From positions 4,798,001 to 4,862,000 of the forward strand of contig NZ_CP126170.1 of the NCBI RefSeq assembly GCF_033170385.1: 64,000 nucleotides of DNA, in the 5' to 3' direction. Every line of letters begins with the position of its first letter. Position 1 is the stretch's first letter. The position numbers and the translations under genes were made by a program. The notes under the pieces are model-generated. The model ran no database searches. It worked only from the letters and a program-made list of their open reading frames with translations, and was not told where the DNA came from. The stretch comes from Xanthomonas rydalmerensis (GTDB lineage: Bacteria > Pseudomonadota > Gammaproteobacteria > Xanthomonadales > Xanthomonadaceae). This document shows positions 62,258 to 64,000 of this stretch, piece after piece.

Positions 62258-62737
62258 TCAACTGCCCTTGTTGCTGAGAATGGTGATGTGGCCATTGGTC
62301 TCCAGCAACGCCAGGCGCAGGTCGTCGATGCCCTGGCACCCCTGCTGGCGCATCGCCGCCTCGAAATCGGCATGGCTGACCAGTTCGCGGCGCAGCACCT
62401 GGCGGAACACGTGGCCGTCGCGGGCCAGCACCACCGGTTCGCCCTCGATCAAGCGCTCCACGCGGGCGCTGCGCGAGGTGACCAGGCCGACCGTGAAGTT
62501 CAGCGCGATCAGCGTCGCCGCCAGCAACAGACCGCCGCCGAGCGAGGTGTCCTCGCCGAGCAGGGCGTTCTGCACCGCATTGCCTAGCAGCACGATCAAC
62601 AGCATGTCGAACGGCGTCAGCTGGCCCATGGCGCGCTTGCCCGACACCCGCACCATCACCAGCACCGCCACGTACACCACCACCGCGCGGAAGACGAATT
62701 CCCACCATGGCATCGACAGATGGAAAAGATCGGGCAT
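62258..62737 (-). CDS. DUF421 (YetF-like) membrane protein
   Basis: 159 residues. Three spans (WWEFVFRAVVVYVAVLVMVRV, FDMLLIVLLGNAVQNALL, LLLAATLIALNFTVGLV) flank the conserved GKRAMGQLTPFDMLLIVLLG motif, then a cytoplasmic domain with EGEPVVLARDGHVFRQVLRRE. YetF-type proteins are poorly understood membrane proteins. Convergent with DUF2164. Confidence 0.9.
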   Translation of the reverse strand: MPDLFHLSMPWWEFVFRAVVVYVAVLVMVRVSGKRAMGQLTPFDMLLIVLLGNAVQNALLGEDTSLGGGLLLAATLIALNFTVGLVTSRSARVERLIEGEPVVLARDGHVFRQVLRRELVSHADFEAAMRQQGCQGIDDLRLALLETNGHITILSNKGS

Positions 62738-62821: not shown

Positions 62822-62858
62822 AAAAAAGCCCCGCGGACCAGGGGGAGGTCGGCGGGGC
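62822..62858 (-). terminator. Rho-independent terminator of the sX13-like RNA
   Basis: GCCCCGC-C, inner GACC stem, C-rich loop, GGTC, then GCGGGGC followed by six T. It doubles as the last C-rich-loop hairpin of the small RNA. Confidence 0.9.
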
Positions 62859-62946
62859 CAGGGAACGGAGACTTGGGGAGGAGTCGCCGTTCCTGGATCT
62901 GCTCCAGGGGATGGGAGGAGATCCGCGACAGGTATTGCGCCTGTCG
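62822..62946 (-). ncRNA. sX13: sX13-like small regulatory RNA
   Basis: The transcript, read leftward from about 62946, folds into a chain of clean hairpins. SL1: CGACAGG-CGCAATA-CCTGTCG (62946-62926). SL2: GGATCT...AGATCC with a TCCCATCCCC loop (62924-62895). SL3: GGAACGG...CCGTTCC with an inner GAC/GUC stem and a TCCTCCCCAA loop (62893-62862). SL4: GCCCCGC...GCGGGGC with inner GACC-TCCCCC-TGGTC, then six T (the terminator). Unpaired C-rich loops complementary to ribosome sites are the hallmark of Xanthomonas sX13. A -10-like TTATAT precedes it. Position and strand, downstream of and co-directional with polA, also match sX13, and recall Spot 42 (spf) in enterics. sX13 is known to control virulence and type III secretion mRNAs in X. 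euvesicatoria; the target list here is unknown. Confidence 0.85.
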
Positions 62947-63260
62947 AGGGATATAAGAACATTTCCCACCTTGCTCGTTCGTGAAGATTTAAGTTAAAAA
63001 TTTGTCAGATTAAGGACGGATTCATTCCCAAAACTTCGCCCGAAATACACCGCGTCAAAATTCCGTTCAAACGCTGCAGTGCCGGGTGTTTCAGGGTGTG
63101 ACGCCAGTTGGCATTTCAGGGCTTTCAGCGCGCGATCGGGTCAAAAAAACAACGCGAATGGGAAAGCGAAAATCACTGGCGGGATAATCCGTCCGAAAAC
63201 CGGATTCCATTCGCAGCGGGCGACGCGCGCGCTGTCTACGCAAGACACCGCAACACCAGG
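62947..63260. promoter_or_regulatory. AT-richer region upstream of the sX13-like RNA
   Basis: About 310 bp between the small RNA and the 3' end of polA, clearly poorer in GC than the rest. It holds TTATAT (62954-62949, minus strand) as a plausible -10, but no clear -35. No protein gene is supported. Confidence 0.55.
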
Positions 63261-63294: not shown

Positions 63295-64000
63295 TCAATG
63301 CGCCTCGTCCCAGTTGTCGCCCACGCCGCTGTCCACCACCAGCGGGACCTTCAGCTCCGCCGCGGCGGACATCCGCCCCGTCACTTCCGGCAGCAAGGTG
63401 TCGACGAAGTCGGCATCGGCTTCGAACACCAGTTCGTCGTGCACCTGCAGGATCATCAACGCGCGGTCGCGGTGGTCCTGCAGCCAGGCGTCCACGCCGA
63501 CCATGGCGCGCTTGATGATGTCGGCGGCGGTACCCTGCATCGGCGCGTTGATCGCGGCGCGCTCGGCACCGGCGCGCAGGCCTTGCTGGCGGGCGTTGAT
63601 GTCGTTCAGGTACAGGCGGCGGCCGAACAGGGTCTCCACGTAGCCCTGAGTGCGGGCCTGCTCGCGCATGCGCTCCATGAAGTCGCGCACACCCGGGTAG
63701 CGGCTGAAGTACAGCGCCACGTAGTCCTGCGCCTCGCCGCGGCCGATGCCCAGGTTGCGGGCCAGGCCGAACGCGCTCATGCCGTACATCAGGCCGAAGT
63801 TGATCGCCTTGGCGGCGCGGCGCTCGTTGCCGGTGACCTCTTCGAGCTTGCGCCCGAACACCTCGGCGGCGGTGGCGCGATGCACGTCCACGCCGCTGCC
63901 GAAGGCGCGCAGCAGGCCCGGATCCTCGGACAGGTGGGCCATGATCCGCAGCTCGATCTGCGAATAGTCGCAGGCGATCAGCTTGCGCCCGGGCGGGGCG
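63295..64000 (-). CDS. polA: DNA polymerase I, C-terminal part (cut by window end)
   Basis: 234 residues of the polymerase domain are present; the start lies beyond the window. Motif A is read from [10 protein letters not shown] at the edge, motif B (O-helix) in [14 protein letters not shown], and motif C in [10 protein letters not shown]. Palm and fingers of a family A polymerase are clear. It repairs gaps and matures Okazaki fragments. A directional stem-loop and the sX13-like RNA follow its stop. Confidence 0.95.

Follow-up and report, generated by a model that had tools for sequence, protein, structure and literature searches.

A 64,000-nucleotide (nt) window of the Xanthomonas rydalmerensis genome (NZ_CP126170.1, positions 4,798,001 to 4,862,000) was analyzed for a small RNA (sRNA) element located directly behind polA. 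Sequence comparison supports its identification as sX13, a known regulatory RNA of Xanthomonas. The element is very probably an sX13 ortholog of about 126 nt that includes an additional 5' hairpin, HP0, acts in trans via its C-rich loops and derives from an older polA-locus RNA that also gave rise to ErsA and anti-hemB. The sX13 call itself concerns a known RNA; the wider lineage and the longer gene model are newly proposed here.

The Rfam covariance model of sX13 (RF02232) matched positions 62936-62822 of the minus strand over its full length, scoring 116.1 bits where the gathering threshold is 50 (E 1.3e-21). This was the sole Rfam match at gathering level in the window and the only match to the sX13 model in the whole genome (5.04 Mb); ErsA (RF01719), anti-hemB (RF02837) and Spot 42 were not reported by Rfam for the window. 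The initial annotation had proposed an sX13 ortholog and named a covariance search as a possible refutation; the search bore the proposal out. Folding of the minus strand between 62946 and 62822 yields four hairpins (-66.3 kcal/mol, z -8.1), and none of 200 shuffles was equally stable. The plus strand of this interval folds well too (z -6.8), as inverted repeats in general do. The apical loops of the three C-rich hairpins read CAUCCCCU, CCUCCCCA and UCCCCCU. Fold and sequence agree with the four hairpins, three of them with C-rich loops, and the T6 end described initially, as well as with the orientation relative to polA, for which the strand had been left implied: both lie on the minus strand. 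Part of TCCCATCCCC, one of the loop stretches listed initially, is base-paired. The polA open reading frame ends at 63295, and the element starts 347 nt further on in the same direction. Three features of sX13 are present: a covariance score above the cut-off, three stems with 4C/5C apical loops and a site downstream of polA. Loops and polA synteny, as well as sequence, structure and terminator, correspond to published sX13 (Schmidtke et al. 2013, PMC3771888). Across the source family, the model matched 237 of 247 genomes at E<=0.001 (196 above the cut-off), representing 51 of 54 genera. A second covariance model that includes the 5' hairpin, R1, gave 130.1 bits at 62947-62822, with the window sequence being among its 17 training sequences. 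The features of the locus are listed in the table.

Table. Features of the sX13 locus (window coordinates)
Feature	Position	Strand	Basis
sX13 sRNA gene, predicted full transcript of ~126 nt	62822..62947	-	Rfam and R1 (Rfam/published form 62936-62822, 115 nt)
HP0, 5' hairpin; only its 3' half within the published 115-nt RNA	62926..62946	-	fold, covariation
HP1, loop CAUCCCCU at 62913-62906	62895..62924	-	fold; equals published stem 1/loop 1
HP2, loop CCUCCCCA at 62881-62874	62862..62893	-	fold; equals published stem 2/loop 2
Terminator hairpin 62859-62827, loop UCCCCCU 62846-62840, T6 62827-62822	62822..62859	-	fold, sequence
Promoter-like CGAACGA - 16 nt - TCTTA	62954..62981	-	read by eye; weak in this genome
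polA, C-terminal part; rest beyond window edge	63295..63999	-	Pfam DNA_pol_A, E 7.5e-96
Downstream gene, YetF/DUF421 membrane protein (context)	62258..62737	-	Pfam PF04239, E 1.1e-13

The 5' end of the Rfam match (62936) falls inside the HP0 loop. Thus HP0 is not part of the published 115-nt RNA, if, as we infer, the printed 115 nt equal the 115 positions of the Rfam model. In the 17 sX13 sequences 98.3% of the HP0 cells are paired, compared to 28-60% in a slid-partner control, and double changes occur at four of seven pairs. Among 72 class-wide matches, in an alignment fitted to the model, double changes were located at all nine of nine pairs. The -10 element ends 2-13 nt ahead of HP0 in 51 of the 53 loci with a promoter score of at least 10, and the weak -10-like TCTTA of the window ends 7 nt ahead of it. 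Judged from covariation and from promoter position in relatives, the transcript is expected to start near 62947. HP0 would belong to the primary transcript, and the published 5' end would either be processed or result from HP0 having been missed. Alternatively, HP0 might be a DNA inverted repeat beside the promoter, such as an operator, rather than an RNA helix, and the RNA would be the published 115 nt. The published length is in line with this, as is the observation that RNA lacking 14 terminal nucleotides still complements (PMC3771888). However, the arms of HP0 vary freely in sequence while pairing is retained, unlike a protein-binding palindrome, and the -10 spacing in the 51 loci points to a start at HP0. 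An operator is therefore considered unlikely. The HP0 covariation together with the promoter position in relatives indicates that the four-hairpin interval, as initially annotated, is the better gene model than the published 115 nt.

The sX13 RNA of X. campestris pv. vesicatoria is 115 nt long, is encoded behind polA and has three loops rich in C; its action requires these loops and 4G motifs near the translation starts of target mRNAs (PMC3771888). It is Hfq-independent, acts as a repressor of hfq and promotes the expression of hrp genes (PMC3771888). Its level is also described to rise at 37 C, in high salt and in minimal medium. The hfq gene of X. rydalmerensis retains the 4G site, the G-rich site mediating sX13 control of hfq; the target check covered hfq alone. 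As E. coli hfq has the same codons, retention of this site is weak evidence. The model of the type III secretion protein HrcV found nothing above its cut-off in the source genome. Its single match, below the cut-off (G000:C1:2597797-2599803, L112), is the flagellar FlhA (855.5 bits), adjoining FlhB. Judged by the HrcV model, with HrpX and HrpG not searched for, the part of the published function that concerns type III secretion is therefore unlikely to apply to X. rydalmerensis. This absence and the published start inside HP0 are the differences to sX13 as described. In the favored reading, sX13 of X. rydalmerensis would be a trans-acting RNA, about 126 nt long, that has a promoter of its own and ends at an intrinsic terminator. 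By orthology, the three exposed C-rich loops would base-pair with G-rich sequences in or close to ribosome-binding sites and mostly block translation, a mechanism demonstrated by other groups for X. campestris pv. vesicatoria.

Beyond the family, sX13, ErsA and anti-hemB look like members of one polA-engB lineage, in which Spot 42 is perhaps included. It is likely that these RNAs, along with many unnamed ones and perhaps Spot 42, represent one ancient RNA of the polA-engB-cytochrome c locus of Gammaproteobacteria. This RNA would ancestrally have been regulated by envelope stress (sigma-E), with loops copying the anti-Shine-Dalgarno CCUCC, would occur in tandem in some lineages and would have been re-wired to another promoter in xanthomonads. 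Gammaproteobacteria denotes here the class of the genome collection, and no claim is made for Alphaproteobacteria. The wider lineage was not reported in the open-access literature searched. The 2013 paper reported sX13 as exclusive to Xanthomonadaceae and left open whether polA loci of other bacteria encode such RNAs (PMC3771888).

To compare such loci, 80 named polA loci were fetched. Beyond the sX13 loci, many of them carry, behind polA, a GC-rich terminator and hairpins whose loops contain CCUCCC and UCCCC. R1 was built from alignment A1, which combines the window copy with 16 of the 19 loci positive in Rfam (20 scanned). The 57 test loci (L054-L110, 351 kb) are defined as not used to build R1 rather than as outside the family, since L054 and L055 are labelled Lysobacteraceae. 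Rfam, applied to 40 of them, identified six ErsA, two sX13 and one anti-hemB (L110). At E<=10, R1 had 30 matches across the 57 loci: 27 lie directly behind polA on its strand, ErsA and anti-hemB loci among these, and three lie elsewhere. Of the 27, twelve reach E<=0.01; the remaining ones, individually weak, count mainly by their shared position behind polA. A broader model, R2, was built from 33 sequences with ErsA, L110, L060, L095 and L101 held out; distant sequences were aligned via R1 (A5), as the MAFFT alignments A2 and A3 of the distant group misaligned HP2 and were not used. R2 recovered the held-out L110 (E 8.5e-4), L060, L095 and L101 and all six Rfam-confirmed ErsA loci (E 2.4e-5 to 0.079). 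In 48 loci it gave 23 matches at E<=10, 18 of them behind polA and five elsewhere. In one Luteibacter (L063:6622-6699) a match cut by the locus end lies about 2.9 kb behind polA, as if an insertion had occurred.

Whole-genome searches serve as a control against chance terminators, because the other terminators of each genome compete. The Rfam sX13 model matched 13 of 274 class genomes, ten of them outside the family; seven of these ten were fetched, and in four the match lies behind polA. R2 matched 115 of the 274 at E<=0.1. At E<=1e-3 it identified 81 non-family sites, or 77 after subtraction of four tandem copies in loci already counted. Of these 77, 42 have polA nearby, 19 engB without polA, six a cytochrome c gene only and ten none of these (weakest engB match E 9e-32; Pfam confirms cytochrome c, which we take to be c4). 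Counted by genome, 67 of the 75 non-family genomes have their best R2 match no more than 2 kb from polA, engB or a cytochrome c gene; excluding G415, a member of the R2 training set, leaves 66 of 74. Three of the eight genomes with the best match off the locus have loci shortened by contig ends (1.7-2.1 kb). Including three family members, 45 loci contain polA, with the RNA on the polA strand in 42 and inverted in three; in the latter (L159, L166, L180) polA and the match lie on opposite strands and point towards each other. Where the genes stay together, the order is polA, sRNA, engB (reverse) and cytochrome c. The anti-hemB model alone matched 124 of 274 class genomes at E<=0.001, and 54 of the 81 R2 sites also have an anti-hemB match (E<=2.4e-6). 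Tandem copies were analyzed in 64 of the 67 locus-linked sites, with the three inverted ones omitted. G415 (L114/L125) harbors four sRNA copies between polA and engB, by eye each with its own sigma-E-type promoter and terminator, and L142, L149, L156, L161 and L189 have two copies each.

Covariation occurs in all helices among the 72 class-wide matches, in the alignment fitted to the model. After refolding without the model, CCCC was present in a hairpin loop in 68 of the 72 and CCUCC, presumably the anti-Shine-Dalgarno core, in 56, compared to 17.6% and 6% of 720 mononucleotide shuffles. These loop statistics describe more than they prove, since the selecting model already knows such loops.

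The promoters provide a further common feature. Elements of the GGAACTT-16-TCTGA type, which we take to be the sigma-E consensus, were scored out of 12 in 66 of 67 loci (the short locus L134 was omitted), with mononucleotide shuffles as control. A score of at least 10 was reached in 53 of the 66 class loci but in only 1.8% of shuffles, and the spacer is 16 nt in 49 of these 53. Named polA loci reached this score in 18 of 20 cases (a set chosen by eye among the 57, whose starts were placed manually) and ErsA loci in six of six, each compared to about 2% of shuffles. ErsA has been reported as sigma-22-dependent. The CGAACGA...TCTTA of the window lines up, by eye, with the CGAACTA...TCATA seen in some other Xanthomonadaceae. 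This pattern suggests an ancestral sigma-E control that would have been weakened or replaced in xanthomonads.

Several points weigh against the favored reading. Only two of 18 Xanthomonadaceae copies, which include the refetched window copy (L121), reach 10/12; the window promoter scores 8/12, which is not above chance, and another 8-point placement is also listed. Expression of sX13 in this genome is a prediction. Fifteen of the 27 R1 matches behind polA have E >0.01, including L110 (0.16) and all ErsA-type loci except L081. No R2 match at E<=0.1 was found in 159 of 274 class genomes. A phylum-wide draw gave matches at E<=0.001 in 11 of 299 genomes (five family, two order, three class, one outside the class), a rate not comparable with 115 of 274 as the class share of the draw is not shown; the match outside the class has no polA, engB or cytochrome gene nearby. 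The anti-hemB model exceeds its cut-off in only 13 of 274 genomes and also matches in three of 14 control genomes. Of its 83 listed matches, 29 fall at other positions or at sites that do not reach the R2 threshold. Finally, sX13 is Hfq-independent (PMC3771888), whereas the effect of ErsA on anr is described as requiring Hfq.

These RNAs might also be unrelated and have converged on C-rich loops, with the models merely detecting C-rich terminators. By eye, sX13 shares little sequence identity with ErsA or anti-hemB, the covariance models contain a terminator, the loop statistics are drawn from model-selected sequences, and R2 also matches an ordinary terminator of the X. rydalmerensis genome (L151). 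However, 67 of 75 non-family genomes have their best match at the polA/engB/cytochrome c locus despite the competing terminators, all helices covary, and the same promoter type recurs mostly with 16-nt spacing. The anti-hemB model and R2 also coincide at 54 sites, while 29 of 83 anti-hemB and 27 of 81 R2 matches do not. Convergence is thus regarded as improbable. Least plausible is that the element is merely the polA terminator and 3' untranslated tail: it does share the strand of polA and has an intrinsic terminator at its end, but it matches an experimentally studied sRNA family over its full length, is separated from polA by 347 nt of other sequence, has a promoter just upstream of HP0 in relatives and occurs beside engB without polA in 19 of 77 non-family sites (flanks about 1.5-2 kb).

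ErsA (Pseudomon-1, RF01719) shares the polA-engB locus, C-rich loops, terminator hairpin and sigma-E-type promoter, but is a separate Rfam family with an Hfq requirement in one published assay, and its Rfam model begins about 20 nt inside the R2 match (L081: 3837 vs 3815). Anti-hemB (Burkholderia RNA 7, RF02837) has a CCUCCCU-loop hairpin and terminator and many polA/engB sites in common with R2. It differs by its 81-position model, and its best class-wide match (G352, L202) has no polA or engB within 1.5 kb and no visible sigma-E-type promoter. Spot 42 resembles sX13 in gene order, E. coli polA-spf-yihA, on which the comparison made in the initial annotation was well grounded. In a 4.5-kb E. 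coli stretch spf is the best R2 match (15.2 bits, next 6.1; E 0.034), which is only a hint. Spot 42 presumably has no C-rich loops. It has been described as Hfq-dependent and as lacking sequence similarity to sX13 (PMC3771888).

Other elements of the source genome were also noted. A two-hairpin tail behind a phasin gene (Pfam Phasin_2; G000:C1:4326616-4326721, L150:1617-1722) has UCCCUCCC in both loops and a terminator end. Its hairpins matched in 20 of 20 genus genomes, and ten aligned sequences show invariant loops and variable stems; no Rfam family was found for them at gathering score. This element may be a second C-rich-loop RNA. An anti-hemB match at G000:C1:245246-245348 (29.8 bits) is sub-threshold. 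L151, the second extra R2 match in this genome (30.6 bits), was rejected as a lineage member because its fold is that of a usual terminator.

The annotated 5' end of sX13 is predicted to be too short, which bears on the design of constructs and probes. The question left open in 2013 is answered with yes by this comparison, as such polA-locus RNAs were found in dozens of gammaproteobacterial genomes. As judged from locus, architecture, loops and promoter, sX13 would derive from an older RNA of the polA - sRNA - engB - cytochrome c locus that was driven by a sigma-E-type promoter and would also have given rise to ErsA and anti-hemB. This reading links separately named Rfam families and predicts that they share sigma-E-type control and loops that would compete for G-rich ribosome sites.
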